NCBI RefSeq assembly: GCF_009184865.1
Contig: NZ_CP045096.1
Location: 7,378,001-7,442,000, forward strand
DNA length: 64,000 nucleotides
Source: Streptomyces phaeolivaceus
GTDB lineage: Bacteria > Actinomycetota > Actinomycetes > Streptomycetales > Streptomycetaceae
Direction: 5' to 3'
The notes beneath the pieces were generated by a model. That model saw nothing but the letters and a program-made list of their open reading frames with translations. It searched no databases and was not told where the DNA came from. Of the stretch, positions 46,885-64,000 are shown piece by piece. The stretch's first letter is position 1. The number at the start of each line of letters is the position of its first letter. A program made the position numbers and the translations under genes.

Positions 46885-48306
46885 TCAGCTGTTGCTGCTG
46901 GAGCGGCCGAAGAACTCGATCTCGGCTATCGCCACCTGCTTCTTGTCGTCGGCGCCGTAGGAGGAGCGGATGGTGAAGCGGACGGTCTCGGCGCTGCCGA
47001 CGCGGAACTTGCGGCTCTGGCCGCCGACGGTCTGGTCGAGGGTGATCATCTTGGTGGACTTGGTGCCGTCGGCGGCGGTGATCGTCGCCTCGATGCGGTG
47101 CGGGCGGGCCGACTCCGTGCGCTGGTCCGGCTTCTTCGAGACACCCGGTGTGATGACCACGTCCAGCAGCCGGACGGGCTGCTCGAAGCGGGCCTCGATC
47201 CACTCGCCCTCGCCGGACTGGGTGACACCCGGCCCCCACCACGTGTTGTTGTACGTGTCGAAGGCCAGATCCGGCTTGTGGCCGGGGAAGGAGCGGGACG
47301 CCTTGTAGGTGTCCGGGTTGACCGACGCGCGCTTGGAGAAGTGGTCGCGGGCCGCCTGGTAGCCGTCGTCCGCCTGGAACGCGAGGGTGACGATCAGGGT
47401 GAGGACGACGGCCGCGACCACCCAGTTCAGGATCGCGCCGAAGCCCCGGCGCAGCCGCGGACGGTCGCCCGCCCACGGGGTCTCCGTGTCACGGCCGTTC
47501 AGCAGTCGGCGCCACCACGGCAGCCGCCCCGGAGCCTCCGTACGGCCGGCCATCGGCATCGCGCAGCGCGCGCAGAAGTGCCGGTCCGGCCGGGTCGGGG
47601 TCCCGCACCACGGGCAGGGCACACCGCCCTCCGTGCCGAACTCCGGTCCGGGGGTACGGACCTGGGGGCGCTGCACGTCGGGGCGGCCCGGCAGCACGGG
47701 TGCGACGGCCGGCTCCGCCGGGGCACGCGGCTCGGGGTCGGCGACCGGGACGAGCAGCGACCTGGCCCGGTCGGCGGCGGAGGGGCCCGGGTCGGGGTCG
47801 GCGGAGGTCGGGAGGGGGGTGGTCGGGGCCTCGTCGTCGTGCGGGGGGTGGGGCGCGGGGCCCGGGTCGGCGGGGGGCGCCGGGGCCTGCGTCCGGGGCT
47901 CGGCCGGGGGAGCCGCCGTCGGCGCGCCGCCCGTGGGGGCCGGTTCGGGGGCGGGGGGCGCGTCCGTCCGTACCGTCGCGGCGGTCTCCGGGGTGCGGAC
48001 GTCGGTGGCCGCTCCCGTGCCGGCGCCCGGGAGGGCGAAGGTGTCCCAGCCGGGCTCACCGGCGGCCGGCGCGCGTCCGGCGGAGGCACCGGTGGGCGCG
48101 GGTGCGGGCGTCGGAGCCGGGTCGGCCGTGCGCGCGGTGTCGGCCGGGGCCTCGCCCGTGGCGCCGCCCGCGGTCGCTCGGGCCGGGGTTCCGGACCAGC
48201 CGAGCACCGCGCCGCAGGCGTCGCAGAAGGACTGGCCGGGCTCCCCGCGGGTTCCGCATTCGGCGCAGCTCTGGGCCTGGCCGGTGCCGGGGGTCGGGCT
48301 GGTCAT
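46885..48306 (-). CDS. Zinc-ribbon membrane protein with discoidin-like domain, last eCIS gene
   Basis: 473 residues. Two zinc ribbons: CAECGTRGEPGQSFCDACG near the N-terminus and CPWCGTPTRPDRHFCARC near residue 240, separated by a Pro/Ala/Thr-rich linker. A single membrane helix follows (NWVVAAVVLTLIVTLAF, about 300-320). The C-terminal ~140 residues form a beta-rich domain (KPDLAFDTYNNTWWGPGV to the end) like discoidin or sugar-binding jelly rolls. The ribbons would be cytosolic and the sugar-binding domain outside. Start and the preceding baseplate gene's stop overlap by four bases, so it is translated with the injection system. It could tether particles to the membrane; this is inference. 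Confidence 0.82.
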   Translation of the reverse strand: MTSPTPGTGQAQSCAECGTRGEPGQSFCDACGAVLGWSGTPARATAGGATGEAPADTARTADPAPTPAPAPTGASAGRAPAAGEPGWDTFALPGAGTGAATDVRTPETAATVRTDAPPAPEPAPTGGAPTAAPPAEPRTQAPAPPADPGPAPHPPHDDEAPTTPLPTSADPDPGPSAADRARSLLVPVADPEPRAPAEPAVAPVLPGRPDVQRPQVRTPGPEFGTEGGVPCPWCGTPTRPDRHFCARCAMPMAGRTEAPGRLPWWRRLLNGRDTETPWAGDRPRLRRGFGAILNWVVAAVVLTLIVTLAFQADDGYQAARDHFSKRASVNPDTYKASRSFPGHKPDLAFDTYNNTWWGPGVTQSGEGEWIEARFEQPVRLLDVVITPGVSKKPDQRTESARPHRIEATITAADGTKSTKMITLDQTVGGQSRKFRVGSAETVRFTIRSSYGADDKKQVAIAEIEFFGRSSSNS

Positions 48307-48860
48307 CTCTCGGGGATCCTTTCGGCGGCGGTCACCTGGACCGTGTAGGGCATATGGGCGGGGCGGGCGGCGGCCACGAGGCTGTCCAGCCGGTGTTCGT
48401 CCGCCGCGGTGGGGTGGGGCAGGCTCAGGGCCACGTGGAGGCGTGGACGGCGTTCGCCGGGGACCGGGCCGAGGGGGCGGGCGTCCCAGGTGGCGGCCCC
48501 GCTCTCGGTGATCTCCGGGGTCACGCCGAAGACGAGGCGCACCGCCTCGGACAGGCCGCGGCGGGTGCCGCGTACCCGGTGCAGATACGCGGCGGCGGCG
48601 ACGGCCGCGCGCAGCCGGGGCTCCGGTTCCGTGCCGTCGGTCTCGGCGCCGACCCAGCCGGCGAGCCACTGGGTGAAGTCGACGGGGGCGAGGGACGGGG
48701 TGAAGTAGGAGTCCAGGCAGTCGAGTACGGAGAGGATCGGGGCGAGTATGTCGTCCAGGCCGCCGACGAAGCGTTGGGCGAGGTCGTCGTCGGCGAACAC
48801 GGCGGGGAGCATGGTGCCGATGGGGGTGGAGGAGCCGAGGCCGTCTATGGAGCCCCTCAT
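48303..48860 (-). CDS. Phage tail protein I-like baseplate component
   Basis: 185-residue wedge protein resembling phage P2 gpI and the equivalent baseplate component of Afp/PVC-type particles. The family phrases YLHRVRGTRRGLSEAVRLVFG and LRAAVAAAA are visible, along with the FTQWLAGWVG motif in the first third. It should join gpJ and gp25 in the baseplate wedges. The ATG at 48860 lies 100 nt after the gpJ-like gene; the gap holds a dispersed GC repeat, unlike the tight overlaps elsewhere in the operon. Confidence 0.85.
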   Translation of the reverse strand: MRGSIDGLGSSTPIGTMLPAVFADDDLAQRFVGGLDDILAPILSVLDCLDSYFTPSLAPVDFTQWLAGWVGAETDGTEPEPRLRAAVAAAAYLHRVRGTRRGLSEAVRLVFGVTPEITESGAATWDARPLGPVPGERRPRLHVALSLPHPTAADEHRLDSLVAAARPAHMPYTVQVTAAERIPER

Positions 48861-48901
48861 GACGCGCCGCCCAGTAGCTCGGGGGGTGCTGTCGTGTGGC
48901 G

Positions 48902-48947
48902 GCTGCGGGTTCGTCGTGGCTGGTCGCGCAGTTCCCCGCGCCCCTTA
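48902..48947. repeat. Dispersed GC-rich repeat copy inside the eCIS operon
   Basis: CTGCGGGTTCGTCGTGGCTG followed by GTCGCGCAGTTCCCCGCGCC. 41 of 44 bases match the copy at 55311-55354, and it closely resembles 3481-3524. It fills almost the whole gap between the gpI- and gpJ-like genes. On the minus-strand transcript the CCCCTTACGGGG end can form a small hairpin. Confidence 0.75.
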
Positions 48948-48960
48948 CGGGGCCCGGGCC

Positions 48961-50919
48961 TCACTGCTTGTCCCCGATCACTCGGACCCGGTGGTCGAAG
49001 GAGAAGACCAGGGACGGGGGAGAGAGGTCGATGCGGTTGGTGGGGTCGCCTCGTTTGCCGGTGAGGGGGTCGGCGGGGTGGAGTTGGACGTCGTCGACGA
49101 GTTCGACGCCGGGGACGCGCTGGAGGACGGCGAAGACCTCGCCGGACTGGACGGGGCGGCCGAAGGGCCAGCCGCGGCCGTCGGCGCCGCCGGTCAGCGG
49201 ATCGAGGTGGCGGTAGAGCGCGTCGTGGGCCTGGCGGCGGACCCGGTCGGTGTCGGTGCCCCGGAAGGCGTGCAGGGTCGCGACCACCGTGATGCCCTGG
49301 TAGAAGGGCGGGCCGACCGCCAACCGCGTGCCGATCAGACGGCGTTCGTCGAGGTGGCGGGTGATACGGCGCAACAGGGCGTCGCCGGGGACGAGTTGCT
49401 CGAAGCGGAGCCTGCCGCCGGGGTCCGGGACGGCCTGGGGGACGACCAGGACCCGTACCGCGTACGCGCCGTGCTCGCCCTCCTCGCCCTCCAGACAGGT
49501 GATCCGGGCGGTCTCGGGGGCCGCGCGCCGGGCCAGTTCCTCGTAGTCGCGCAGGGTCACGGCACGCTCCTGGGCGCGCAGGGTGATCGGCGCCCGGACC
49601 TTCGCCTCCTCCACGGTCTCCGCGTCGACCCCGCCGCGCGCGGCCTCACGGTTGACGACCTCGGAGACGTACGGCACGGAGGTGCGCAGCACCCGGATCG
49701 CGCCCCGGGCGACATTGCCGGCCCGGCCACCGCCGGTGCGGTAGCGCACGGCGCGGATCACGGAGCCCTTGGGCGCGACGGCCCCGTACTCGCGCAGGGT
49801 GCCGTCGGGCTCCCGTACCGCCGGGCCGAAGGCGATCTCGCCGGTGGCCGGGTCGAGGGTGATGTGCCGGTCGTAGGAGGTGGACGCGGAGAAGGACGGG
49901 ACGACGTCCCAGTCGGTCCAGCCGTCGTGCTCGGCGGTCTGCAGGAGGACGGGCGGGGTGTCGCCGACCACCGGGTAGTGGGCGAGGCGCAGCCGCTGGC
50001 CGGGCAGGCCGGTGGACTCGCCGAGCGCCTCGTCGTACACGGTCTCGGCGTGCACGACGGTGGTGGTGCCGCCGACGGTGAAGGCCTCGGCGGCGCGCAC
50101 GGTCGGCGAGGTGGTGTAGAAGGGCTGGTTGGGGAGGGGTTCGGTGACCCGGCAGCGCAGCCAGCCGGCCTCCTGGCCGCCGGTGCGGGACAGGGTGTGC
50201 GCGCCGGGCATGTGCAGGATCACCTCGCCCGGACGGTTCAGACCGCCCGTGCCGTCACGGTCGATCTCGCACTCCGTCCAGCCGTCCTCGGTCCACGCCT
50301 CCCAGACCAGCGGCGGCTGCCGCGGGTCCACGCCGACGCCGTCGACGACGCTGTCCAGTTCCAGCGCGATCGCGCAGTACGGGACGGCGGCGGTCAGCCC
50401 GAACAGCATGCAGTCGCCGGGGCGCGGGGACTCGGCGAAGCACATCAGGTCCTTGCCCTCGGCGAGGTCGGCCGTCCGGTCGGCGCCCGGCTCACCGGGC
50501 CGCTGGGTGACCAGATACCGCAACTCGCAAGGGACGACGTTCAGTTCGCGCTCGGTGGCGAAGACGACCGCCTCCTCGCTCTCGGTGCGCACGGTGGCGA
50601 CCTCGGTGCCCACGGGCAGCGGCACCGGCTCCTCCTGCGGCGCCGACAGCCAGAAGGTCACATCGGTGCGGGCGGCCGAGGGCGGGAACAGGGTGATGCC
50701 CACCAGGTCCAGGAACGCCAGATGGTTCTTCTCCGGCACCCGGTTGAGCCGGTAGACGATCTGGTCGGCCATGTGGGCGACCGTCTCCACCAGGGTGACG
50801 CCGGGGTCGGAGACGTTGTGGTCGGTCCACTCCGGGGCCCGCTGCTGGATATAGCGCTTGGCGTCGTCGACGAACTGCTGGAAACGGCGGTCGTCGAGGT
50901 TCGGGGAGGGCAGGGCCAT
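48961..50919 (-). CDS. gpJ-like baseplate assembly protein
   Basis: 652-residue wedge protein of the putative baseplate assembly family (P2 gpJ / Afp11-like). The N-terminus has the conserved LDDRRFQQFVDDAKRYIQQR and the WTDHNVSDPGVTLVETVAHM pattern. The C-terminal third carries the baseplate J-like segment (KVRAPITLRAQERAVTLRDY) that defines the family. It should trimerise with gp25 and gpI around the hub. The ATG at 50919 overlaps the gp25 stop (TGATG), so the two are coupled. Confidence 0.9.
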   Translation of the reverse strand: MALPSPNLDDRRFQQFVDDAKRYIQQRAPEWTDHNVSDPGVTLVETVAHMADQIVYRLNRVPEKNHLAFLDLVGITLFPPSAARTDVTFWLSAPQEEPVPLPVGTEVATVRTESEEAVVFATERELNVVPCELRYLVTQRPGEPGADRTADLAEGKDLMCFAESPRPGDCMLFGLTAAVPYCAIALELDSVVDGVGVDPRQPPLVWEAWTEDGWTECEIDRDGTGGLNRPGEVILHMPGAHTLSRTGGQEAGWLRCRVTEPLPNQPFYTTSPTVRAAEAFTVGGTTTVVHAETVYDEALGESTGLPGQRLRLAHYPVVGDTPPVLLQTAEHDGWTDWDVVPSFSASTSYDRHITLDPATGEIAFGPAVREPDGTLREYGAVAPKGSVIRAVRYRTGGGRAGNVARGAIRVLRTSVPYVSEVVNREAARGGVDAETVEEAKVRAPITLRAQERAVTLRDYEELARRAAPETARITCLEGEEGEHGAYAVRVLVVPQAVPDPGGRLRFEQLVPGDALLRRITRHLDERRLIGTRLAVGPPFYQGITVVATLHAFRGTDTDRVRRQAHDALYRHLDPLTGGADGRGWPFGRPVQSGEVFAVLQRVPGVELVDDVQLHPADPLTGKRGDPTNRIDLSPPSLVFSFDHRVRVIGDKQ

Positions 50920-51380
50920 CAGCGGTCGCTTTCCGGACGGTCGGGAGAATCGGGACGGTCGGAGCCCTCGGGGGCCAGGTCCGGCTCGTCGTGGGACGGG
51001 ATGACGTAGAACGGGAAGACCAGGCTGCGCGGGTTGTTGGTGCCCCGGATCGAGTACTGCACATCGATGAAGAGGACGCCCTGGTCGGCACCGGCCGTCA
51101 CCTCGACGTCGGCCACCTCGATCCGGGGCTCCCAGCGGTCGAGGCTCGTGTACACCTCGTGCTGGATACGGCCGGCGGTGGCCTCGTTGACCGGCGCGAA
51201 CACCAGGTCGTGGATGGCGCAGCCGAACTCGGGGCGCATCGGCCGCTCGCCCGGCGCGGTCGCCAGGATGAGCCGGATGGCCTCCTCGACCTCGCGCTCC
51301 CCGCTGACCAGGGCGATGCCCCCGGTGGGCCCGATCCGCAGCGGGAACGCCCAGCCGGATCCGACGAACTGTTCGGCCAT
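50919..51380 (-). CDS. gp25/GPW-type baseplate wedge protein
   Basis: 153-residue protein of the T4 gp25 family, which nucleates the sheath on the baseplate. The conserved EEAIRLILATAPGERPMRPE and FGCAIHDLVFAPVNEAT stretches are intact. The last 20 residues are an Asp/Pro/Ser tail (PDSPDRPESDR) not needed for the fold. It is separated from the spike gene by 83 nt that contain several ATCCGA repeats; elsewhere at this position a PAAR-type tip gene is common but none is found. Confidence 0.92.
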   Translation of the reverse strand: MAEQFVGSGWAFPLRIGPTGGIALVSGEREVEEAIRLILATAPGERPMRPEFGCAIHDLVFAPVNEATAGRIQHEVYTSLDRWEPRIEVADVEVTAGADQGVLFIDVQYSIRGTNNPRSLVFPFYVIPSHDEPDLAPEGSDRPDSPDRPESDR

Positions 51381-51463: not shown

Positions 51464-53377
51464 TCATCCGAACGGGTACTTGATCGTGTTGACGGAGAAC
51501 ACACCCATCAGCTCGACCTTGACGCCCTTGAGGTTCAGCAGGGCGGCGGCGCTGATCTGCACGGTGCCGACCGCGCTGAGCGTCGCCATGCCGGCCGCGC
51601 TGAGGTTGAGGGCGCCCGCCGCGGAGACGTTGACCGCGCCGGCCGATCGGAGGCTGACGATGCCCCCGCCCTGGATGTTGAGCGGGCCGCCGCTCCTGAG
51701 GGACAGGGTCCGGCCCGCCGTCAGGGACAGATCCGTACCGGCCTTCACGGACACCGAGGTGCCGCCCGTGATGGAGACCGCGCCCTTGCTGTCCACGGTG
51801 ATCTCGGTCTTCGTCCGGTCCAGGTGGACGGTCAGCCGGTTGTTGCCGGTGGCGAGGCGCACGCCCTGCATGCGCGGGCCGGTCTGCTGGCTGAGCAGGT
51901 CGACCCGGTTGCCCTCCCGGTCGGACAGGGTGTGCAGGATCGCCTTCTTCTTGACCGGGTCGTGCAGCCACATGTCCTTCACCGGGGTCGGCTTGTCCAC
52001 GCCGTTGTAGAGACCGCCGATGACGAACGGATGGTCGAGCGCGCCCCGGTCGAAGCCGACCAGCACCTCGTCGCCGACGTCCAGCGGGAAGATCCCGCCG
52101 CCGCCCTTGCCGCCCATCTGCACGGTCCGCGTCCAGTCGCTGACGTAGGTGTCGTCCAGCCACGGGAACTGGAGCTTCACCCGCCCCTGCTTCAGCGGGT
52201 CCTGGACATCGGTGACCAGGGCGTTGGCGACGCTGGGCAGCCGAGGCGACGCCGAACCGCCCCCCGAGGACAGACCGAACAGCGAGCGCCACTGCCGGCC
52301 GCTGACGGTCACCCAGGTCTCGTAGTGGCTGCCGTCGCCGAAGGTGTGCCGTACGGACGTGCAGGTGTACTTGCCCTCGAACGGGGCGCCCACGTCGGAG
52401 AGCGTGATCGGCACCCCGGGGCGCAGCAGCGGGTTGCCGCGCACCATGACCTCCAGCTCGGCGAAGGAGGAGGTGATGTCGTCGGCCAGCGAACCGGCCG
52501 CGTGTGTGACCTCGCTCTGCAGGTCGTACGGGGTGTCGGTCTCGACCAGCTTGGCGGCCTTGAACGGGTTGGCGGCCTTCTGCGGGGTGGTGCCGATCGC
52601 GATACCGGGGTTGGCGCTCGCCCTCGTCGTCGCGGTGAGCTTCTTCTTCGTCGTGACGTTCCAGCCGCGCGCCTCGACCTTGTCGACCTGGTCGGCGGCG
52701 GTGACGGCGGCCCGGCAGCGCAGGATGTCCACGCCGGCCTTCAGCTCGTAGGGGCTCTTCTGCCCGGGAGGGCTGGGCGCCGCCGCGCCGGACGCCGGCT
52801 TCGGCTTGACGAACTGGAACTTCCCCTTGGCGTCCAGCGACATCACCATCTCGTTCTCGTCGGCGAGCCGCGCGAGGAAGTCCCAGTCCGTCACATTGGA
52901 CTGGCTGATGAAGTCGTAGACGGTCTTGGTGGACTGCACCTGTCCCACCGGGACGCCGTTCATCCCGGCCAGCTTGCGGGCGATGTCGGCGGCCGTCTGA
53001 TTGCGGTACGCCGCCACCCTGCGCACCCGCATCAGCCGGTGCCCCGGGTCGTAGCCGCGGACGACGGTGAAGGTGCCGGTGCCGTCGTAGTCGGTCTCCA
53101 TGCCGGTGACCTCGCCGGTGAACACCGGGGAGCCCGCGCCCTGTCCGCCGGCCACGGGCGAGATGACCACCAGGGAGCCGAACCTGACGTTCAGTTTGCC
53201 CAGCAGCAGCCCGTGCGGGTCCCGGAAGGTGAGCCGGAACGCGCCGGGCACCCCGGCGCCGAGATCGACCCAGCCGCCGACCAGCAGATCGGCGTAGTCG
53301 GTGGGCAGTTTCCTGCCGTCGACGGTGACCTCGATGATGTTGGAGAAGGACGGGTCTCCGGCCTGGCCGCCTCCCAT
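51464..53377 (-). CDS. VgrG-like spike (gpD plus gpV domains)
   Basis: 637 residues. The N-terminal half is a late-control gpD/hub domain (from TVDGRKLPTDYADLLVGGW, through MNGVPVGQVQSTKTVYDFIS). An OB-fold gpV domain follows (QGRVKLQFPWLDD, DVGDEVLVGFDRGALDHPFV, about 400-480). The C-terminus is a long beta-helix of repeated short strands (SLTAGRTLSLRSGG, VNVSAAGALNLSAAG). As a trimer it caps the tube and pierces the target. There is no extra effector domain after the beta-helix. The ATG overlaps the LysM gene's stop by one base (TGATG). Confidence 0.93.
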   Translation of the reverse strand: MGGGQAGDPSFSNIIEVTVDGRKLPTDYADLLVGGWVDLGAGVPGAFRLTFRDPHGLLLGKLNVRFGSLVVISPVAGGQGAGSPVFTGEVTGMETDYDGTGTFTVVRGYDPGHRLMRVRRVAAYRNQTAADIARKLAGMNGVPVGQVQSTKTVYDFISQSNVTDWDFLARLADENEMVMSLDAKGKFQFVKPKPASGAAAPSPPGQKSPYELKAGVDILRCRAAVTAADQVDKVEARGWNVTTKKKLTATTRASANPGIAIGTTPQKAANPFKAAKLVETDTPYDLQSEVTHAAGSLADDITSSFAELEVMVRGNPLLRPGVPITLSDVGAPFEGKYTCTSVRHTFGDGSHYETWVTVSGRQWRSLFGLSSGGGSASPRLPSVANALVTDVQDPLKQGRVKLQFPWLDDTYVSDWTRTVQMGGKGGGGIFPLDVGDEVLVGFDRGALDHPFVIGGLYNGVDKPTPVKDMWLHDPVKKKAILHTLSDREGNRVDLLSQQTGPRMQGVRLATGNNRLTVHLDRTKTEITVDSKGAVSITGGTSVSVKAGTDLSLTAGRTLSLRSGGPLNIQGGGIVSLRSAGAVNVSAAGALNLSAAGMATLSAVGTVQISAAALLNLKGVKVELMGVFSVNTIKYPFG

Positions 53378-54160: not shown

Positions 54161-54586
54161 TCAGTCCGTGAACCCGTGGTGGGTGATCTCCAGGACCTCG
54201 GTCGCCACGCTCGGGTTCGCCGGGTCCAGGGACGGCCCCTGCCAGCTCACCGGCAGTACGTCGATCAGGCCCCAGTGCGCCACCTCCGAGCCGTCCGCGC
54301 GCAGCGCCGCGATCTGGGCGGTCGGGCGCTTGACTCCGGTCGCCACGGAGGAGATCCAGGCCGCGACCTTCGCCGTGTCCGGGGTCAGCGGGCGGGTCAA
54401 CCGGATGTTCGAGTACGTCACACGCGACGGGAACTGCCAGACGAACCCGTTGTTCCCGCCCTCCTGGCGGTGCTCGATCTCCACCGTCGAGGACAGCCCC
54501 TCGCACCCGTTGAAGTAACCGAGGCTCTCGCCGTCGATCGTCAGGGTGAAGAAGATGGTGGAGCCCGGGTCGAGATCGCGGGGCAT
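54161..54586 (-). CDS. Tail tube protein paralogue (tube initiator)
   Basis: 141-residue gp19-like tube protein. Recognised by FTLTIDGESLGYFNGCEGLS and by TYSNIRLTRPLTPDTAKV, the same fold as the main tube gene 4.5 kb upstream but only distantly similar. Contractile injection loci normally carry such a second tube gene, whose product forms the ring between hub and main tube. The ATG at 54586 follows AGAAAGG. The 91-nt gap upstream is filled with imperfect TGCCTGTGG-type repeats. Confidence 0.92.
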   Translation of the reverse strand: MPRDLDPGSTIFFTLTIDGESLGYFNGCEGLSSTVEIEHRQEGGNNGFVWQFPSRVTYSNIRLTRPLTPDTAKVAAWISSVATGVKRPTAQIAALRADGSEVAHWGLIDVLPVSWQGPSLDPANPSVATEVLEITHHGFTD

Positions 54587-54677: not shown

Positions 54678-57600
54678 TCAGTGGCGGGGGTCGCGGAGCT
54701 TGCCGATTCGTTCGCGGTCCATACGGAGTTCGGTGCGGACGAGGCGGGTGATCCGGCCGATCAGCCGGTGCGTCAGCTCGTCCAGCTGGAAGTCGGTGAG
54801 GGCGCGGGGGTCGAGCTGGGCGCCGGGGGCGGCGTTCACGTCCACCGCGAAGTAGGCGGGCGGGAGGTCGGCCGAGGCGCTGCGGTGCGTGGTGCCCGAC
54901 GGGGGAACCGCGGTCGCCGTCACCGGGGTGACCGCCGTGGTCGTGGTGGCGGGGGTGGGGCGGAGGGAGGTCTCCGGGGCTCGCTGGATGGGGGTGGGTG
55001 AGGGCGTGGGTGTGGGCGCGGGGGCGGGTGTGTGGAGGGTGGTGGGGGTGACGGTGAGGGGGCGTGCGGCGCGGGGTGGGGGCGTGCGTGTGGGGGCCGG
55101 TGTGGGGGCCGGTGTGGGCTTTTCGGCGGTGAGGCGTTGTACGGGGGTGGAGCCGGTGCCTGGGGATGTGGGGCGGCGCAGGGGTACGGCGGCCGGGGGT
55201 GTGGTGGGGGTGGGCAGGGGCGCCGAGGTGAGGGCGCGGGTGGGGGTGAGGGGGCGTGCGGCGGGGGTGCTTGCGCGCATCACGGGGTGGGGGGTTGGTG
55301 GGGTGGGCGACTGCGGGTTGGTTGTGGCTGGTCGCGCGGTTCCCCGCGCCCCTTCGGTGCGCCGGCCGGGGGGCGGCGTCGTGAGGAGTTGTGGGGGTGG
55401 GCCCGGGGTGGGGGTCGTCCTGGCCGGGGGTGGTGTGGTCGCTCGCTGTACGGGGGCCGTACGTCCGGAGAGGGGTCGCGTGTCCTGGGGCGGGGTGGAG
55501 AGAGGTGCGCCGAGCAGGGGGCGATGACGGGGGGTGGTCGGAGTCAGGGGGGCGCGCTGGATCGGGGGAACCGGGGGAACCGGGGGCGCCGAGGGGGTGG
55601 GGGGTGTGGCGGGGCGGGGCGCGGAGGGCGGGACGGGGCCGGAGGTCGGGGCACCGAGACCCATGCGCCTGGCTCCGCCGGGGGTGCTCCGCTGGACCGG
55701 GTGGGCGGCGGGGGTGGGTGCGGCGCTCGGGGGGTTGTTCGGTGTGCTGCCGGGCACGACGGTGCCACGAGCGCCGGCCGGGGCTGCGGTCGGCTGGTTG
55801 GCCGTGCCGGTGGCTTCGGTGGTGGTTCGCTGGACATCGACCTTGGCGGGGCTGGGGCTGGGGCTGGGGGTGGCCGCTGTACCGGTGGAGCTGGTGGTGG
55901 CCCGTTGGATGTTGATGCCGACGGGACTGTGGGCGGCGGCCGGGCTCCCCGCTGAACTGCCGCCGGTACCCATGGGGTTGGGTGCCGAGCCGCTGCCGGT
56001 GTGGCTGGGGTCGGCCGGCGTACCGGTGGCTCCGGTTGCTGCCCGCTGGACATTCACCCCGGCGGGGCCGGAGATGGCCGGGGCGTCCGCTGAACCGCTC
56101 CCCGCGTGGCCGGAGTTGGCCACAGAGCCACTGGGACTGGCCGCTCGCGCAACGGGGTTGGATGCCGTGCCGCCGAGGGCGGTTGCGCGCGCGCCGGAGC
56201 CGCCCGTCGAGCCGGTGGAGTTCGGTGCCGTGGGGCTGGTGGGGCTGGCGGGGCTGGTGCCGGTCGCCGTCACGGTGGGGTCGGTGGTCGTACGGCCGGA
56301 ACTCGCCGCCGTACCGGTGGAGTCGGTCGCCGCCCGCTGGATGGCGAGCCCCGCGCGGCCGATGTCGGCTGACGCGCCCGAGCCGCCGCCCGATTCGGCT
56401 GAGCGGTGCCGCGCGGCCTCGACACCGGCGGGGCCTGCGGCAGCAGCCGTCGCCCCGAGAGGGCTGCCGACCGGCCGCGTACCCGAGCCCGCCGAGCCCG
56501 CTGTGTTACGCCCGGACGAGGCTCCGCCCGGTGCCGTACGGCTGGAGGGGTCGCTGCCGGAAGTCTTGTGGCCCGAGGTTGTGTCTTCGGATGCCGATCG
56601 CTGTGCCGGGGTGTTGCTGGTGACGTGTGGGTGCCCGGATGAGGAACTGCCGGGCGTTGTACGGCTGGAGGGGTCGCTGCCGGAAGTCTTGTGGCCCGAG
56701 GTTGTGTCTTCGGATGCCGATCGCTGTGCCGGGGTGTTGCTGGTGACGTGTGGGTGCCCGGATGAGGAACTGCCGGGCGTTGTACGGCTGGAGGGGTCGC
56801 TGCCGGAAGTCTTGTGGCCCGAGGTTGTGTCTTCGGATGCGGAACGCTGTGCCGGGGTGTTGCTGGTGACGGGTGGGTGCCCGGATGAGGAACTGCCGGG
56901 CGTTGTACGGCCGGACGAGTCGTCGCCGGAAGCCGTGCGCCCCGGCGCGGCATCGCGCTGTACCGAGGGCTGCGCCGAGCGCTGTACTGGGGATCCGCCG
57001 GGAGTCCTCTGTCCCGACGGGGCGCCACCCGGTGTCGTACCGGCGGAGGCCGGGCGCCCAGGCGAGGAACCGCCCGGCGTCGTACGGCCGGACGAGTCGT
57101 CGCCGGAAGTCGTGCGCCCGGACGTGGCATCGCGCTGCACCGAGTGCTGCACGGAGCGCTGTACTGGGGATCCGCCGGGAGCCCTCTGCCCCGACGGGGC
57201 ACCACCCGGTGTCGTACCGCCGGACGAGCCGGCCCCCAACTCCGGACGTCCCGCTGCCGCATCGCCCGCCACCGAGCGCTGCACCGACGCACCGCCGGAC
57301 GCCGTGCCGCTCGACGCGGTGTCGCCCGACCCGGAGTTCGGTACCGAGGCGCGCCCCGGTGTCGTACGGCCGGACGAGGTGGCGCCGGGCGCCGGGCGTC
57401 CCGATGCCGTGTCGCTCGCCACCGAGCGCTGTACCGGCGGCGCACCGCTGGAATTCATGGGGCCGGACGCGGTGTCGCCCGGAGCCGTGAGCCCCGGCCC
57501 GGCATCGCTCGGCGCGGAGTCCCGCACGGAGGAACTGCCCGGTGTCGTGCGGCCGGACGAGGCGGTGCCGGACGCCGGACGCTCCGGTGCCGTATCGCCC

Positions 57601-58466
57601 GCAACTGAGCGCTGTACCGACGTACCACCGACAGCCGTGCCTCCGGACGAAGGAGCGTCCGGCGCTGGTGCTGGCGCCGTCGGTCCGCCCGGTGCGTGGT
57701 CGACGGGCGACGCGGCCCCCGGTGCCGTACCCCCTGACACCCCGTCGGCCCCGGTCGGCCGCGGACGGGCCGTCGGCAGTGTGCGGCGCTGGACGGCCGG
57801 TGACGTGGTGGGGGCCTTGGTCAAAGGGGTCGGGCGGTGGGGGGCGCGGGGCGGTACGGGGGTCACCCGGGGGCCCGTCGGGCGGGACGGGGTGACCTGG
57901 TGCCGGGCGCGCTGGACCGGCCGGGCGTCGGTCGGGGCGTCGGCGTGTGCCTCGGGCCCGTCCTGCGCCACCGGCAGTGTGCGCGAGGGCAGTTCGAGTC
58001 CGGAGACGGGGGTCGCCGACGTGGTGAGGACGTCCCTGACCAGCCCGCCCGGAGCTCCGGGCAGGACGGCGTGGGACAGCGACCCGGCGAAGGACGGGTT
58101 CTGCCAGGTGCTCAACCGCCCGCTGAACCCGGCGTCCGCGACGACGGCCCGCCCCCCGATGGCCCGCTGGATCGGGGCGAGCCCCTCCCAGCCACGGACC
58201 GAGGCCGAACCGAACGAGCCGCCACCCGCGCCCCCCGGAGCCGGATTCCCCCCGGCCCCGGAGCCCGAGGCACCGGAACCCGAGGAACCTGAAGGTCCGG
58301 AGCCCGAGGCTCCGGCATCGGACCTCACCCCGCCACCCGAGCCGCCCCCGGAACCCGAGCCGCCCCCGGAACCCGATGCGGCCCCGGTGCCGGCGTCGGC
58401 CCCGTCACCCCCGCCCCGGCGCCCCGCCGACCCGGCGGTGTTCCGAAAGCGATCCAAGAACCCCAC
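54678..58466 (-). CDS. Large low-complexity eCIS protein with recent internal repeats
   Basis: 1262 residues, dominated by Pro, Thr, Ser, Gly and Ala, with many VQR/QRS motifs spaced through it. Only the ends look folded: residues ~85-160 (WEGLAPIQRAIGGRAVVAD, then WQNPSFAGSLSHAVLPGAP) and the last ~70 (AYFAVDVNAAPGAQLDPR, then LTDFQLDELTHRLIGRI). Other Streptomyces eCIS loci carry a similar gene in this position. It could act as a tape measure or chaperone-like scaffold, but no known tape-measure features such as long coiled coil are visible. Residues ~520-642 are three near-identical 41-residue units, and residues ~1037-1052 come from a dispersed DNA repeat. The GTG start lies four bases after the small gene's stop. 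Confidence 0.8.
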   Translation of the reverse strand: MGFLDRFRNTAGSAGRRGGGDGADAGTGAASGSGGGSGSGGGSGGGVRSDAGASGSGPSGSSGSGASGSGAGGNPAPGGAGGGSFGSASVRGWEGLAPIQRAIGGRAVVADAGFSGRLSTWQNPSFAGSLSHAVLPGAPGGLVRDVLTTSATPVSGLELPSRTLPVAQDGPEAHADAPTDARPVQRARHQVTPSRPTGPRVTPVPPRAPHRPTPLTKAPTTSPAVQRRTLPTARPRPTGADGVSGGTAPGAASPVDHAPGGPTAPAPAPDAPSSGGTAVGGTSVQRSVAGDTAPERPASGTASSGRTTPGSSSVRDSAPSDAGPGLTAPGDTASGPMNSSGAPPVQRSVASDTASGRPAPGATSSGRTTPGRASVPNSGSGDTASSGTASGGASVQRSVAGDAAAGRPELGAGSSGGTTPGGAPSGQRAPGGSPVQRSVQHSVQRDATSGRTTSGDDSSGRTTPGGSSPGRPASAGTTPGGAPSGQRTPGGSPVQRSAQPSVQRDAAPGRTASGDDSSGRTTPGSSSSGHPPVTSNTPAQRSASEDTTSGHKTSGSDPSSRTTPGSSSSGHPHVTSNTPAQRSASEDTTSGHKTSGSDPSSRTTPGSSSSGHPHVTSNTPAQRSASEDTTSGHKTSGSDPSSRTAPGGASSGRNTAGSAGSGTRPVGSPLGATAAAAGPAGVEAARHRSAESGGGSGASADIGRAGLAIQRAATDSTGTAASSGRTTTDPTVTATGTSPASPTSPTAPNSTGSTGGSGARATALGGTASNPVARAASPSGSVANSGHAGSGSADAPAISGPAGVNVQRAATGATGTPADPSHTGSGSAPNPMGTGGSSAGSPAAAHSPVGINIQRATTSSTGTAATPSPSPSPAKVDVQRTTTEATGTANQPTAAPAGARGTVVPGSTPNNPPSAAPTPAAHPVQRSTPGGARRMGLGAPTSGPVPPSAPRPATPPTPSAPPVPPVPPIQRAPLTPTTPRHRPLLGAPLSTPPQDTRPLSGRTAPVQRATTPPPARTTPTPGPPPQLLTTPPPGRRTEGARGTARPATTNPQSPTPPTPHPVMRASTPAARPLTPTRALTSAPLPTPTTPPAAVPLRRPTSPGTGSTPVQRLTAEKPTPAPTPAPTRTPPPRAARPLTVTPTTLHTPAPAPTPTPSPTPIQRAPETSLRPTPATTTTAVTPVTATAVPPSGTTHRSASADLPPAYFAVDVNAAPGAQLDPRALTDFQLDELTHRLIGRITRLVRTELRMDRERIGKLRDPRH
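55311..55354. repeat. Dispersed GC-rich repeat copy inside a coding region
   Basis: 41/44 bases identical to 48903-48946. It is read in frame on the minus strand as EGARGTARPATTNPQ within the 1262-residue protein. Copies elsewhere are intergenic. Confidence 0.75.
56541..56909 (-). repeat. Three tandem 123-bp repeats in the large eCIS gene
   Basis: Units start at 56541, 56664 and 56787 with an exact 123-bp period (41 codons). The first two are virtually identical; the third differs at a few bases. The units encode TSNTPAQRSASEDTTSGHKT-type sequence. More diverged versions continue on both sides, so the array has been expanding by duplication in frame. Confidence 0.9.
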
Positions 58467-58470: not shown

Positions 58471-58629
58471 TCAGCCCTCCGACCCGCCCCGTGTCACGAG
58501 GGACGCGATCTGTTCGGTGTAGCGGCGGCGGTCGTGGTGTTCGAGGTCGAGGATCTCCTCGAAGCTCCAGTGGAAGTGGTAGGCGACGTACGCGATCTCC
58601 TCGTGCAGCCGGTCGGTCGCGTACGTCAC
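58471..58629 (-). CDS. Small eCIS-associated protein (DUF6760-like)
   Basis: 52 residues beginning MTYATDRLHEEIAYVAYHFH and continuing WSFEEILDLEHHDRRRY. The pattern of an acidic/aromatic helix followed by LDLEHHDRRRY recurs in small proteins between tube and tape-measure genes in contractile loci. Function unknown; in tailed phages the equivalent position holds a tail assembly chaperone. The GTG start overlaps the preceding stop by four bases (GTGA). Confidence 0.82.
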   Translation of the reverse strand: MTYATDRLHEEIAYVAYHFHWSFEEILDLEHHDRRRYTEQIASLVTRGGSEG

Positions 58630-59153
58630 GATTCCCCCAGGCGGCTCCCGCCGAGTTCGACCTCGAAGGGCTCGGAGCAGTGCGGGCACCGCACGGCCGC
58701 GCGGGTGTGGCCCTCCGCGTTGACCTGCCGGTAGAAGTCCTGGAGGAACGCGAGGTCGGACGCGAACATGTTCTCCACGATCCCGTCGTGGACCATCGGC
58801 AGATTGCCCAGCCGGGTGATGACCCGGCCGAGCAGCACGACCGACAGATACGCCGGGTTCTCCTGCACGCGGACGTCCCGCAGTGGGATCAACTCGTCCC
58901 GGGCGGTGGCGAGACGCATCACGCCCTCCCGGTGGACGTTGCCCGCCTCGTCGACATAGCCGCGCGGCAGCTCGAACGGGAACTCCGTCCGCAGCCGTTG
59001 CGCGACCGGCGCGACGGCCGGAGCCGGAGTCGGCGCCGGAGCCGACGCGGCGGCGGGAGGCGCGGCGGTGGTGGGGAAGGGGGCCGCGGCCGGAGCCGCT
59101 TCCTCCTGCCCCGCACCCGGGACCGCGCCCGCCCTGGCAGCCGTGCGCCGCAT
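58626..59153 (-). CDS. eCIS protein with Pro/Ala linker and CxxC motif
   Basis: 175 residues. An N-terminal Ala/Pro/Thr-rich segment (1-55) precedes a compact domain: FPFELPRGYVDEAGNVHREG, then LRDVRVQENPAYLSVVLLGR, then the CPHCSEPFEVEL stretch near the C-terminus. This architecture is typical of the gene after the tube in Streptomyces and PVC-like loci; I infer a tube-assembly or chaperone role. Only one CxxC is present, so a zinc site would need a dimer or other ligands. Start overlaps the tube stop by one base (TAATG). Confidence 0.85.
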   Translation of the reverse strand: MRRTAARAGAVPGAGQEEAAPAAAPFPTTAAPPAAASAPAPTPAPAVAPVAQRLRTEFPFELPRGYVDEAGNVHREGVMRLATARDELIPLRDVRVQENPAYLSVVLLGRVITRLGNLPMVHDGIVENMFASDLAFLQDFYRQVNAEGHTRAAVRCPHCSEPFEVELGGSRLGES

Positions 59154-59596
59154 TACTCGATGACCAGTTCTTCGAAGACGATGGTCACGGTCTCGGTGAG
59201 CGCGGACGCCTCGCCCGCCTTGAGGGTGCTCGCGTCGATCTTGCTGCACCAGGCGTTGCGCATGTTGTACCGCTTCACCGGGTTGTTCTGATAATCCATC
59301 ATGATGATCGACGCGTTCTTGCGCGCCGACCCCATCTGACCGTTGATCGAGTCGTTGATCCACGTGTTGAACGCGGCCGACTGCGTCATACCGCGCACGA
59401 CCGTGCACTGCCCGTTCTTCTGCACACCGGGCAGCAGGTTGACCTCGGGCCGGCCCTGCGCGGAGTTCTGCTGGTACGTGATGACGTCCTGTTCGAGGGT
59501 GAGGCCGCTGACCTCCGCGAGGTACTCGACCATCACCCCGTCGATCTGCAGGCCGAAATTATGTGAAGTAAGGGCGTCACCCGGCGCGAGACTCAT
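59153..59596 (-). CDS. Main inner tube protein
   Basis: 147-residue gp19-type tube protein, expected to stack as hexamers inside the sheath. Conserved phrases: HNFGLQIDGVMVEYLAEVSG, RPEVNLLPGVQKNGQCTVVRG and the C-terminal AGEASALTETVTIVFEELVI. The ATG at 59596 follows AAGGACAC. It lies 72 nt downstream of the sheath gene, the usual order in contractile systems. Confidence 0.95.
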   Translation of the reverse strand: MSLAPGDALTSHNFGLQIDGVMVEYLAEVSGLTLEQDVITYQQNSAQGRPEVNLLPGVQKNGQCTVVRGMTQSAAFNTWINDSINGQMGSARKNASIIMMDYQNNPVKRYNMRNAWCSKIDASTLKAGEASALTETVTIVFEELVIE

Positions 59597-59668: not shown

Positions 59669-61246
59669 CTACTCCTCCAGCTCCCCGCTGCCGCTGGAGA
59701 ACTGGGCCAGCCGGAAGATCACGAACTCGGCGGGCTTGACCGGGGCGATACCGATCTCGCAGATGACCCGGCCGAGGTCGACCGACTCCGGCGGGTTGGT
59801 CTCCTCGTCGCACTTGACGTAGTACGCGTCCTCGGGCCGCTGGCCGAACAGGGCGCCCTGGCGCCACTCGTTGACCAGGAACGCGGAGACGTTGCGCCGG
59901 ATCCGGGCCCACAGCGCGTGGTCGTTCGGCTCGAACACCACCCACTGGGTGCCGATCAGGATCGACTCCTCCAGGTAGTTGAAGTACCGGCGGATGTTCA
60001 GATAGCGCCAGGCCGGGTCGGAGGACATGGTGCGGGCGCCCCAGACGCGGATGCCGCGGCCCGGGAAGGCGCGGATGCAGTTGACGCCGATGGGGTTGAG
60101 CAGGTCCTGCTCACCGCGGGTGATCTGGAGTTCCAGGTCGACCGCGCCGCGTACGACCTCGTTGGCGGGCGCCTTGTGCACACCGCGCTCGAAGTCGTTG
60201 CGGGCCCACACGCCGGCGACGTGGCCGCTCGGCGGGATGACGCGGGACTGGCCGCTGGCCGGGTCGAAGACCTTGATCCAGGGGTAGTACAGGGCCGCGT
60301 ACTTGGAGTCGTAGCCCGCGGTCTCCTGGCGCCAGACGCGGATCTGCCGGGCGTTGAGGCCGGGCGGCGGGTCGATGACGGCGACGCGGTCGCCCATCAG
60401 CTCGCAGTGCGCGATCAGACCGAGCTGGACGGCCTTGACCGCCTCCAGGTCGATCGCGCCGCGCTGGTAGGCGGCCATCAGGTCGGGCACCGCGACCATG
60501 GAGATCTCGTCCACGGCCTCCAGGCCGCCGAAACCGGTGCGGTCGGCGGAGTCGCCGAGGTACTGGGCCGGTCCGGGGTGGCTGTCGTCCGCCGCGGTGG
60601 GCGCGACGGCGGCCGGCGCGGCGGGGGCGGCCAGGGCCACGGTCTGGTTGTCGGGGCGCGCGAGCTGCGCGGCCGGCGCGGCCTCCTGGACCGTGATGAG
60701 CTTGGAGCGCTCCTTGACCTGCGTGACGACGTAGTTCCGGCCGCCCTTCTTCGCGGTCACGTCGAACGTCTCGACGGCCTTGTCGCCGTCCTTGACGATC
60801 AGCTTGAAGCGCTCGGCCGGGCCCTCGCCCTCGGGGTCGGCGACCTCGACGCTCAGCGAACCGCCCGCGACGGCGGTCACGCTGAACGTGCCCAGCTGCT
60901 TGGGCTCGCCCGGCGGCAGCGCGGCCGGCGCGGCGGAGCCCGTCACGGCGGCCGGGCCGCCGACGGAGGCGCCGCCCTGCTCGGTGCCGCCGACACGGAC
61001 GACGTACGCGGCGCTGCCGCCGTTGTTGAAGAACCCGTACACCGAGTGCGCGAGGTAGTAGCCGTCGGTGAACTCGCCGAAGGCCGCGACGTACTGGGAC
61101 CAGTTGGTCACCAGGGTCGGCTCGTTCAGCGGGCCGGTCGGGGCCAGGCCGACGAAGGCGGCGACCGAGGTGCCCACACCCTCGATGGGACGCGAGCCGC
61201 TGGCCACCTCCTCGACGTAGACGCCCGGCGACAGGTAGGACGGCAT
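59669..61246 (-). CDS. Contractile tail sheath protein
   Basis: 525-residue sheath of the phage/Afp type. The N-terminal signature MPSYLSPGVYVEEVASGSRP and SVAAFVGLAPTGPLNEPTLV are diagnostic. The C-terminal domain carries the conserved ARTMSSDPAWRYLNIRRYF and VVFEPNDHALWARIRRNVSA. Residues ~90-240 are an Ala-rich insert not needed for contraction, probably displayed on the surface. The ATG follows AAGGAG. First gene of the minus-strand eCIS run. Established work on Streptomyces particles places them in the cytoplasm, with a link to stress-induced cell death; that function is not visible from sequence. Confidence 0.97.
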   Translation of the reverse strand: MPSYLSPGVYVEEVASGSRPIEGVGTSVAAFVGLAPTGPLNEPTLVTNWSQYVAAFGEFTDGYYLAHSVYGFFNNGGSAAYVVRVGGTEQGGASVGGPAAVTGSAAPAALPPGEPKQLGTFSVTAVAGGSLSVEVADPEGEGPAERFKLIVKDGDKAVETFDVTAKKGGRNYVVTQVKERSKLITVQEAAPAAQLARPDNQTVALAAPAAPAAVAPTAADDSHPGPAQYLGDSADRTGFGGLEAVDEISMVAVPDLMAAYQRGAIDLEAVKAVQLGLIAHCELMGDRVAVIDPPPGLNARQIRVWRQETAGYDSKYAALYYPWIKVFDPASGQSRVIPPSGHVAGVWARNDFERGVHKAPANEVVRGAVDLELQITRGEQDLLNPIGVNCIRAFPGRGIRVWGARTMSSDPAWRYLNIRRYFNYLEESILIGTQWVVFEPNDHALWARIRRNVSAFLVNEWRQGALFGQRPEDAYYVKCDEETNPPESVDLGRVICEIGIAPVKPAEFVIFRLAQFSSGSGELEE

Positions 61247-61290
61247 GCTCTGCTCTCCTTGGGGTACGAGACAGGTCGCCTCTCACCCTC

Positions 61291-61441: not shown

Positions 61442-62908
61442 GTGAGCCTTTGGACTTCCCTCGAACCCGCCTCCACGACCGTGGACCCGGGGAGCAGTAC
61501 GACGGTACGGCTGCGTCTGCGCAACACCGGTGACGTGGTCGACGAGTACCGCTTCGAGCCGGTCGGCGACATCGCGCCCTGGACCACCGTGGAGCCGCAC
61601 ACGCTCCGGCTGTACCCGGGGACGACGGGGACGGTGGAGCTGACCTTCGCCCCGCCCCGCACCCCCGACGCGACGGCCGGCCCGAACGCGTACGCGGTGC
61701 GGATCACGCCGACCGAGCATCCGGAGGCGGTGACCGTCCCCGAGGGGAATCTGACGATCACCCCCTTCACGGAGGTGCGGGCGGAGCTGGTCCCGCCGAC
61801 CGTGAAGGGACGCCTGCGGGGACGGCCCAAGCTGGCCATCGACAACCTGGGCAACACCAAGGTGACCGCGTCGGTCAGCGGCAGCGACAACGGCGACCAG
61901 CTGTCGTACGACATCTTCCCGAGCAATGTGCGGATCGAGCCCGGTCGTGCCGCGTTCGTGAAGGCCACGCTGAAGCCGCGCCAGATCATCTGGTTCGGGT
62001 CCAAGGAGGAGCGGCCGTACGCCTTCGCGGTGAAGCGGTCGGGGGTCACGCCGCTCGATGTCGAGGGCATGTACGTCCAGCGGAGCTTCCTTCCCGGCTG
62101 GCTCGCCACCTGTCTCGGGATCTTCCTGGCGCTCGCGATCACCTTCCTGACGATGTGGTTCGCGTTCAAGCCCCAAGTGGTCAGCGCCACCAGCGAGTTG
62201 CAGGAGACCTCCGTCAGCACGCTGGCGCCCAGCCCGTCGGCGCCGGCGTCGACCCCGCCGCCGCCCACGCCCTCCGAACCCGCCCCCTCCTCCGCGCCCC
62301 CGCAGGCGGCCGAGACGGAGAGCGCCGCCTCCTCCGGCGGGAGCGGCGGCGGCAGCGGTGGCGGTGGCGGTGGCGGTGACGGCGGTGGTACCGAGGAGAA
62401 GAAGAAGGCCGCGCCCACGGCCGCGACCGCCGTACGGCAGCTGGCGGCGGCGGACCCGGCCGGACGGCACATCTGCTACCGCGCCTTCGTGACGGGCAAG
62501 GGCTGGACGGCCCCCGAGTGCGACGGCGACACGGCCGGCACGGTGGGCCAGGGCAGGTCGCTCAAGGCCCTCAACATCGCGGTGTCCGGCGTCAACGGCA
62601 CGGCCAGTGCCGCGTTCGTCCACGACCCGAACTCGACCAACGGCCAGGGCCATTACCCGAAGCCGTGGTCGAGCGCGAAGGACGGCTTCGACAACTACTT
62701 CGGCAGTTCCAAGGCGGGCGCCCCGGACATGCTGGGCTTCACCATCAACGTCGACGAAGGCGGCAAGGGCGTCTGCCAGGCGGTCCACCAGAAGGACCGG
62801 GGCTGGCAGAACCTGGCCTGCGACAAGCCCGGCGAGGGCGAGCACTACATCTTCGGCGGCACCCTCGACAACGGCATCTGGCTCGAAGCCGTCAAGTTCA
62901 CCGTCTGA
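61442..62908 (+). CDS. Ig-like membrane protein with ChW-like C-terminus (eCIS-linked)
   Basis: 488 residues. The N-terminal ~200 residues form two beta-sandwich segments (LRNTGDVVDEYRFEPVGDIA; PKLAIDNLGNTKVTASVSG). A membrane helix follows at about 220-242 (ATCLGIFLALAITFLTMW). Then comes a Pro/Ser/Gly linker and a C-terminal domain with CYRAFVTGKGW and CDGDTAGTVGQGRSLKALNI, which resembles the clostridial hydrophobic W repeat that binds surfaces. The N-terminus has no signal peptide, so it should be cytosolic, with the last domain outside. Genes of this type lie next to the sheath gene in other Streptomyces, often annotated as hydrolytic proteins; no hydrolase motif is seen here. Its position suggests a membrane-side partner of the particles. 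Confidence 0.82.
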   Translation: MSLWTSLEPASTTVDPGSSTTVRLRLRNTGDVVDEYRFEPVGDIAPWTTVEPHTLRLYPGTTGTVELTFAPPRTPDATAGPNAYAVRITPTEHPEAVTVPEGNLTITPFTEVRAELVPPTVKGRLRGRPKLAIDNLGNTKVTASVSGSDNGDQLSYDIFPSNVRIEPGRAAFVKATLKPRQIIWFGSKEERPYAFAVKRSGVTPLDVEGMYVQRSFLPGWLATCLGIFLALAITFLTMWFAFKPQVVSATSELQETSVSTLAPSPSAPASTPPPPTPSEPAPSSAPPQAAETESAASSGGSGGGSGGGGGGGDGGGTEEKKKAAPTAATAVRQLAAADPAGRHICYRAFVTGKGWTAPECDGDTAGTVGQGRSLKALNIAVSGVNGTASAAFVHDPNSTNGQGHYPKPWSSAKDGFDNYFGSSKAGAPDMLGFTINVDEGGKGVCQAVHQKDRGWQNLACDKPGEGEHYIFGGTLDNGIWLEAVKFTV

Positions 62909-62969
62909 CAAGGCCGTTGGGGCGGGCCGCCGATGGCCGCCGGGGCAGCGGGGCCTGCCCCGGCGACTC

Positions 62970-63004
62970 CTGACCGGACGGCGCCCGCCGCGTAGCGTCC
63001 CTCT
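62970..63004 (+). promoter_or_regulatory. Promoter of the second Ig-like membrane gene, leaderless
   Basis: CTGACC (62970-62975), 17-base spacer, TAGCGT (62993-62998), six bases, then GTG at 63005. Same hexamer and same distance to the start codon as the upstream paralogue. Confidence 0.6.
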
Positions 63005-64000
63005 GTGAGCCTTTGGACTTCCCTGGAACCCGTGTCGGCGGCGGTGGACCCCGGGGGTACAGCGACCGTACGGCTGCGTCTGCGCAACACCGGTGACGTG
63101 GTCGACGAGTACCGCTTCGAGCCGGTCGGCGACATCGCGCCCTGGACCACCGTGGAGCCGCAGACCCTGCGGCTCTTTCCGGGGACCACGGGGACGGTCG
63201 AGCTGACGTTCGCGCCACCGCGCACGCCGGACGCGACGGCCGGCCCGAACGCGTACGCCGTGCGGATCACCCCGACCGAGCATCCGGAGGCGGCGACCGT
63301 CCCCGAGGGGAATCTGACGATCACCCCCTTCACGGAGGTGCGGGCGGAACTCGTCCCGCCGACCGTGAAGGGACGCCTGCGGGGACGGCCCAAGCTGGCC
63401 ATCGACAACCTGGGCAACACCAAGGTGACCGCGTCGGTCAGCGGCAGCGACAACGGCGACCAGCTGTCGTACGACATCTTCCCGAGCAATGTGCGGATCG
63501 AGCCCGGTCGTGCCGCGTTCGTGAAGGCCACCCTGAAGCCGCGCCAGATCACCTGGTTCGGGTCGAAGCAGGAACGGCCGTATCTCCTCGCGGTGAAGCG
63601 GTCCGGGGTCACCCCGCTCGATGTCGAGGGCATGTACGTCCAGCGGAGCTTCCTCCCCGGCTGGCTCGCCACCTGTCTCGGGATCCTCCTCGCGCTGGCC
63701 GTCACCTTCCTGACGATGTGGTTCGCCTTCCGGCCCCAAGTGGTCAGCGCCGCCGGCGAGTACCGGGAGGCCGGCGTCAGCACGCTGCCGCCCTCGGCCT
63801 CGCCGCAGCCGCTGGAGTCCGTGCGACCGGAGCCGGAGAAGGATGCCGAGCCGGAGCCGGACGCGGCCCCCTCCGAAGAAGAGGCGGACGGCGGCGGGGG
63901 CGGGGGCGGGGGCGGTGCGCCCGAGGCCTCGTCCGAGCCGGTCGAGGAGGAGGACGAGAGCGTGCTGCCCGCGCGCAACGTCCTCCTGCGCAACCTCGCC
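63005..64000 (+). CDS. Ig-like membrane protein paralogue, 3' end outside window
   Basis: 332 codons visible, still open at the right edge. The first ~245 residues are almost identical to the preceding gene, including long stretches of identical DNA (for example around 61757-61970 against 63322-63530), and include the same membrane helix (ATCLGILLALAVTFLTMW). The sequence then diverges completely into an acidic Pro/Glu linker and poly-Gly, and ends in view with LPARNVLLRNLA. That phrase resembles the start of a ricin-type beta-trefoil, so a different binding domain may follow; this is a guess. The GTG start is the same as in the paralogue. Confidence 0.85.
   Translation, partial: MSLWTSLEPVSAAVDPGGTATVRLRLRNTGDVVDEYRFEPVGDIAPWTTVEPQTLRLFPGTTGTVELTFAPPRTPDATAGPNAYAVRITPTEHPEAATVPEGNLTITPFTEVRAELVPPTVKGRLRGRPKLAIDNLGNTKVTASVSGSDNGDQLSYDIFPSNVRIEPGRAAFVKATLKPRQITWFGSKQERPYLLAVKRSGVTPLDVEGMYVQRSFLPGWLATCLGILLALAVTFLTMWFAFRPQVVSAAGEYREAGVSTLPPSASPQPLESVRPEPEKDAEPEPDAAPSEEEADGGGGGGGGGAPEASSEPVEEEDESVLPARNVLLRNLA

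Follow-up and report, generated by a model that had tools for sequence, protein, structure and literature searches.

A subtype-IId contractile injection system locus of Streptomyces phaeolivaceus and a conserved protein at its SCO4249 position

The contractile injection systems (CIS) closest to the one reported here are CIS-Sc of Streptomyces coelicolor (sco4242–sco4260) and SLP of S. lividans. Passages of the published work describe the analysed S. coelicolor particles as all equal in length, with 60 tube layers (PMC12237407), and in three papers call a tape measure gene absent from the S. coelicolor or S. lividans cluster (PMC10066040, PMC12237407, PMC12210884). Here we annotate and compare a CIS locus of Streptomyces phaeolivaceus that begins in the right-hand part of a 64,000-nucleotide stretch of contig NZ_CP045096.1 (positions 7,378,001 to 7,442,000; hereafter the window, from whose first letter all positions are counted) and continues past its right end. 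The locus is very probably a complete, ordinary subtype-IId cytoplasmic CIS like CIS-Sc and SLP. We regard the cluster as one more member of an already well-studied class, and the protein encoded by its 1262-amino-acid open reading frame (ORF) at the SCO4249 position, the slot ORF, as an overlooked part of it. A conserved candidate at the expected place of a tape measure makes the question of uniform particle length testable by removal of a single gene.

Gene content and completeness of the locus

The right flank was read from the same contig, genes were called by codon usage, and families were assigned by Pfam, with PHROGs and NCBIfam used in addition. Reading along the minus strand, the locus opens past the window with the cap gene cis16 (Pvc16_N; 67979–68635) and the winged-helix/AAA ATPase gene cis15 with Walker A and B motifs (65961–67982), both assigned by Pfam. 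After an interval of three plus-strand genes (61442–65877), the minus strand resumes with the sheath cis2 (525 amino acids; 59669–61246; PF04984, PF17482 and solved sheaths), the tube protein cis1a (147 amino acids; 59153–59596; PF06841), a tail-assembly-chaperone-like gene at the SCO4251 position (175 amino acids; 58626–59153), a DUF6760 gene (52 amino acids; 58471–58629; PF20546) and the slot ORF (54678–58466). These are followed by a second tube protein, the tube initiator cis1b (141 amino acids; 54161–54586; PF06841, and chain a of 9gtp at an expectation value, E, of 1.2e-76), and by a series of genes assigned by Pfam: the CIS_tube and LysM hub cis7 (241 amino acids; 53377–54102), the VgrG-like spike cis8 (GPD and base_V; 637 amino acids; 51464–53377), the gp25-like cis9 (153 amino acids; 50919–51380), the gpJ-like wedge cis11 (Baseplate_J; 652 amino acids; 48961–50919) and the gpI-like wedge cis12 (Tail_P2_I; 185 amino acids; 48303–48860). 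A gene for a CisA-type membrane adaptor (46885–48306) closes the series.

Gene content, gene order and ORFs are directly read for this assignment, and internal stops are absent from all 19 genes examined in the window and right flank. The sheath, whose relationship was judged from best matches, is 98% identical to the sheaths of S. scabiei 87.22 and S. stelliscabiei, which suggests close kinship with that group. It matches two solved sheath sequences, 8bky/9gtp and 8bl4/9gts, at E = 0, so that the CIS assignment is not a matter of chance; the structure table gives no organism for these entries, which we take to be Streptomyces particles. The sheath C-terminal family has a single match in the 10.2 Mb genome, and our searches found no evidence opposing the CIS assignment. 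Orthology to SCO4242–4260 is proposed from position and domains rather than from alignment to the S. coelicolor proteins, and the particle itself would be expected to function.

An earlier sequence-only reading of the window had named the sheath, two tube proteins, LysM hub, spike, gp25, J and I in this order on the minus strand, and Pfam agrees with all eight families. Its parts list passed over four genes of the run, however (46885–48306, 54678–58466, 58471–58629 and 58626–59153). The run was said to lie on one strand with overlaps of 1–4 nucleotides; the single strand holds up to 61246, with 61442–64000 being plus strand and carrying effector-type genes, and such overlaps occur at five of the 11 junctions from the sheath to the CisA-type gene, the other six being gaps of 4–100 nucleotides. 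That reading was right to place the ATPase and cap outside the window and the remaining genes to the right: the two genes start 2.0 and 4.0 kb past its end, inside the span of about 15 kb that it had set as a limit, and the disabling mutations it had also considered did not appear, all 19 genes being open. Its inference of a complete gene set is thereby supported. The published S. coelicolor cluster, with which it proposed a comparison, is described with the same parts.

The lack of PAAR and of a tail fibre gene that it reported also stands. Between spike and gp25 the gap is just 83 nucleotides and holds no PAAR gene; over the whole genome no PAAR match exceeds the Pfam cut-off (best E 0.41), and scanning the locus genes with Pfam brought up no tail fibre family. 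Missing fibres fit cytoplasmic particles, as had been argued, but a stronger sign, the CisA-type gene, had been overlooked, and the three effector-type genes had likewise gone unnamed. On the linear plasmid of Streptomyces sp. NBC_01324 (locus L188), the same cluster type carries a PAAR gene in the interval from spike to gp25, and a zinc-ribbon gene occupies the CisA position.

The gene order is phage-tail-like, as it would be in a defective prophage tail or an R-type tailocin. We consider it extremely improbable that the locus is either of these. Both the ATPase and the Pvc16_N cap are present, which a passage of PMC10020575 gives as the mark of extracellular CIS (eCIS) regions against phage tails. 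A CisA-type gene is present as well, and no capsid or DNA-packaging family was found among the scanned proteins, positions 1–30483 of the window lying outside that scan.

A conserved disordered protein at the SCO4249 position

The slot ORF sits after the chaperone-like gene and DUF6760 and before the tube initiator, and the same order is seen in relatives. Related loci were taken as the best 80 of 412 relatives, nearly all from Streptomyces, along with a single Kitasatospora locus and two from unnamed Actinobacteria. The ORF is complete in 46 of them, the others being truncated, gapped or broken drafts, and together with the window these give 47 proteins of 1068–1486 amino acids (mean 1225). 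The protein is disordered, with P, A, G, T and S making up about 68% of its residues and no transmembrane-like stretch. Two blocks are conserved: an N block near the N-terminus, approximately WxxLPPIQR...TWQNPSF, and a C block at the C-terminus, approximately FDPRxLTDFQLDELxHRxxGRxTRxxRTELRxDRERxGxLRDPR. Among the 51 of the 80 loci that reach both DUF6760 and cis1b, the C block is found in all and the N block in 50; the exception, L065, contains assembly gaps and has just one copy of the [VIL]QR motif described below. Inside the ORF, at 56536–57269, lie long tandem repeats with periods of 123 and 177 bp, and the length of the protein could therefore change by repeat gain or loss.

We built a profile from the C block and searched it against the slot ORFs, 136 database proteins and 6155 additional ORFs drawn from 38 further loci in Streptomycetaceae and across the wider phylum; two ORFs in the slot of L165 and L172 are counted as slot. 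In the 38 further loci, matches at E < 0.01 numbered 21, all in the slot and no two in one locus, with the next standing at E 2.2. Of these loci 35 could be checked, and the block is present in 21. A homologue search queried with the 63 C-terminal residues hit one of 38 candidates. Against the Deinococcus and Roseiflexaceae proteins the profile gave no significant match (best E 3.8), so that the link to these groups is one of position and of a terminal helix that looks alike. We found no discussion of the SCO4249-position protein in the literature searches made, and the string SCO4249 itself turned up just in another sense in a passage of PMC13033682; figure labels and S. lividans tags escape such a search.

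The slot protein of the window carries 19 copies of the tripeptide [VIL]QR. Over the 47 slot proteins there are 723, as against 15 in shuffled sequences, and in 40 of the 45 proteins tested for spacing (two containing X were omitted) the copies are more evenly spaced than random, with a mean coefficient of variation (CV) of 0.57 versus 0.90. The other 17 locus proteins hold zero to two each, the CisA-type protein one, and the 28 window genes outside the locus hold four where 5.6 are expected. In the effector-type proteins the tripeptide adjoins the transmembrane segment, Q being kept in 100% and R in 97% of the 95 rows aligned, though the residues around it are also conserved, and the pattern may reflect no more than normal conservation of the domain. 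Among 28 Streptomycetaceae eCIS_core ORFs there are 71 copies against 8.3 expected; the 136 proteins retrieved by Deinococcus and Roseiflexaceae queries are little enriched, having 120 where 84 are expected. The S. phaeolivaceus genome itself has two eCIS_core (DUF4157) matches far from the CIS locus (C2:8554421 and C2:4558539), and the ORFs read there hold three and four copies.

The shared tripeptide offers a concrete hypothesis for how the particle might recognise its own parts and its cargo. A rival reading of the slot protein, which we hold to be somewhat unlikely, makes it an adaptor for cargo or loading rather than a ruler, with a [VIL]QR ladder that would draw effectors or further clients of the CIS to the baseplate or tube. 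The tripeptide beside the effector transmembrane segments, its enrichment in eCIS_core ORFs and the single copy in the CisA-type protein would suit this role, as would the dependence of lumen filling on effectors reported in a passage of PMC10066040. However, the effector motif lies within a generally conserved stretch, and an adaptor leaves the chaperone-like gene just before the slot ORF unexplained.

That gene overlaps DUF6760 by four nucleotides in all 80 loci. The profile phrog_508 ("tail assembly chaperone") matches ten of ten orthologues at E ≤ 1, weakly (0.0015 for the window protein, 2.6e-4 at best), and a chaperone identity, for which this profile match is the evidence, is weakly suggested. 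The protein ends C-terminally in a CPHC zinc-ribbon-like stretch and has weak Pfam matches, mostly to zinc ribbons. Neither tblastn over 50,697 phage records (E 0.1) nor a PDB profile search (E 1) gave a match. The predicted structure is poor (mean predicted local distance difference test score, pLDDT, 52; predicted template modelling score, pTM, 0.26), and nothing is concluded from it.

In contractile phage tails, genes usually follow the order sheath, tube, chaperones, tape measure, hub, spike, gp25, J and I. A tape measure was considered because the slot ORF occupies the phage tape-measure place, with the chaperone-like gene before it. The likeliest role of the slot protein, which we put forward tentatively, is that of a divergent luminal scaffold of the tape-measure type: its C-terminal helix would dock on the tube initiator or on the hub, and its [VIL]QR motifs would bind a partner that the effectors bind too. 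It is possible, if short of probable, that Streptomyces-type CIS do have a tape measure, namely a fast-evolving, disordered ruler or scaffold at the SCO4249 position with a conserved baseplate-docking helix and a [VIL]QR ladder that binds either the tube or some shared loading site. Such a role is favoured by the chaperone-like gene that precedes it, by the universal C block among the near relatives, and by the enrichment and even spacing of [VIL]QR.

Several observations weigh against it, above all as regards a ruler. The slot ORF has no match in Pfam, PHROGs or NCBIfam and no profile homology to tape measures. Judged from composition alone, it is not mainly helical or coiled-coil, unlike a phage-type tape measure. 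The C block is lacking in 14 of the 35 checkable further loci, in some of which the second tube gene directly follows DUF6760. In a passage of PMC10066040 the S. coelicolor effector mutant has a mostly empty lumen and otherwise normal particles, and the passage of PMC10020575 on proteins of unknown function in purified S. coelicolor particles names sco4242, sco4256 and sco4251, not sco4249. Length conservation failed as support for a ruler: over 42 loci the CV of slot length is 8.3%, where scaling from the disordered stretch in the chaperone-like gene would predict 4.1%.

The silence of that mass-spectrometry passage (PMC10020575) and the missing sign of length constraint would both be natural if the slot protein served only transiently as a scaffold during assembly, or were a disordered and dispensable relic of an ancestral tape measure, particle length being set otherwise. 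We judge this unlikely, given the C block kept in every one of the 51 near-relative loci, the N block kept in all but the gapped L065, and [VIL]QR copies kept far beyond shuffles.

Returning to the tape-measure-type scaffold, a ruler working by proportionality was also tried, using stand-ins for the measured species' own slot proteins, with no slot value for C. chliarophilus. Slot lengths are 1300, 1354 and 1356 amino acids in L073, L085 and L071, which are presumably near S. coelicolor. Among the best 120 of 214 entries, five complete ones named Roseiflexus sp. have 918–974 (a sixth is partial), and two Roseiflexaceae entries have 1222 and 838. On Deinococcus plasmids, the ORFs after the second tube gene measure 1831, 1973, at most 1817 and 1506 amino acids, those of 1831 and 1973 ending in an eCIS_core region and a similar-looking helix; a fused D. 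grandis ORF of 1259 amino acids and an unplaced Deinococcus sp. entry of 1683 were excluded. The relevant passages give particle lengths of 233 nm in situ and 268 nm in the model for S. coelicolor (PMC12237407), and of 217 ± 16, 238 ± 14 and 365 ± 39 nm for R. castenholzii, C. chliarophilus and D. aquatilis (PMC12998442). Rank order alone agrees, over three groups with stand-in species; the ratios differ, from about 1.7 to 2.4 Å per residue, and no fit is claimed.

The excluded D. grandis ORF lies on plasmid pDEGR-1 (L186:16675–20454) and consists of a tube domain followed by a slot-type protein with an eCIS_core region and terminal helix; no chaperone-like gene is annotated between the sheath and its end. 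Such a fusion, if natural, would suggest that the slot protein touches the tube; the duller alternative is a deletion. In the Deinococcus plasmid CIS loci L185, L187 and L193, very large FHA/protein-kinase genes adjoin the CIS genes.

CisA-type gene, effector-type genes and regulators

The CisA-type protein (473 amino acids; Pfam PF13240 and PF25302, NCBIfam NF047619 and transmembrane prediction) has two zinc ribbons, a disordered N-terminal part, a transmembrane segment at about residue 292 and an NADase-type C-terminal domain at 341–464. Its gene, placed after the baseplate genes, was identified by comparing domains with the published layout; in S. coelicolor CisA, according to a passage of PMC12237407, the N-terminus up to 285 is cytoplasmic and 310–468 lie outside. 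Past the end of this gene by 1.3 kb, a gene of the Scabin-like family (PF22596, E 2.3e-43) occupies 44968–45588 on the plus strand beside a YNCE-type beta-propeller gene.

The three plus-strand genes between sheath and ATPase encode effector-type paralogues, each with one predicted transmembrane segment and a near-identical N-terminal part, the first being immunoglobulin-like N-terminally. According to Pfam, effector-type gene 1 (61442–62908) ends in a ChW repeat where genes 2 (63005–64447, crossing the window's end at 64000) and 3 (64417–65877, past the window) end in ricin-type lectins. The S. coelicolor effectors are given in a passage of PMC10066040 as Sco4256–4258, with lectins as the C-termini of Sco4257 and Sco4258. 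Among related loci that span sheath to ATPase, 61 of 62 contain at least one effector-type N-terminus, the exception being L081.

Two regulator genes assigned by Pfam lie past the cap, a LuxR-type regulator on the minus strand (68769–69446) and a large AAA/LuxR regulator on the plus strand (69497–73423). Among the 19 genes a TTA codon is present only in the latter, which fits the bldA-dependent regulator SCO4263 described in a passage of PMC8505568.

Following the published model, the particles would assemble in the cytoplasm and the plus-strand effectors would fill the tube lumen. CisA would be required for contraction, as a proposed link between baseplate and membrane, and stress would lead to firing and to death or reprogramming of the producing cell.

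Comparison with known systems

The locus shares with CIS-Sc and SLP, as described in passages of PMC10066040 and PMC12237407, the core parts, the position of CisA after the baseplate genes and the effectors between sheath and ATPase; the lack of fibre and PAAR and a regulator with a TTA codon are further likenesses (passages of PMC10066040 and PMC8505568). It differs in its first effector-type gene, which ends here in a ChW repeat. Sle1 and Sle2 of S. lividans are likewise CIS-linked Streptomyces proteins, Sle1 being related to tape measures (PMC13277306). In that work, however, their genes and that of a DUF4157 partner lie upstream of the sheath; here three effector-type genes fill that interval, and the two eCIS_core matches of this genome lie away from the CIS locus.

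Tme, the tape-measure-related effector of the S. davawensis CIS, resembles the slot ORF in being the cluster's largest ORF, just upstream of the baseplate genes and about 70% disordered, but a passage of PMC11126660 gives it DUF4157, predicted transmembrane helices and a nuclease domain, whereas the slot ORF has neither a family match nor a transmembrane segment. The diffocin tape measure is described in part of PMC10286715 as a coiled-coil trimer spanning about 1388 Å, whereas the slot protein is built largely of P, A, G, T and S and gave no match to a tape measure profile. What the slot protein has in common with phage and diffocin tape measures is its place in the gene order, a chaperone-profile gene before it and a conserved C-terminal block.

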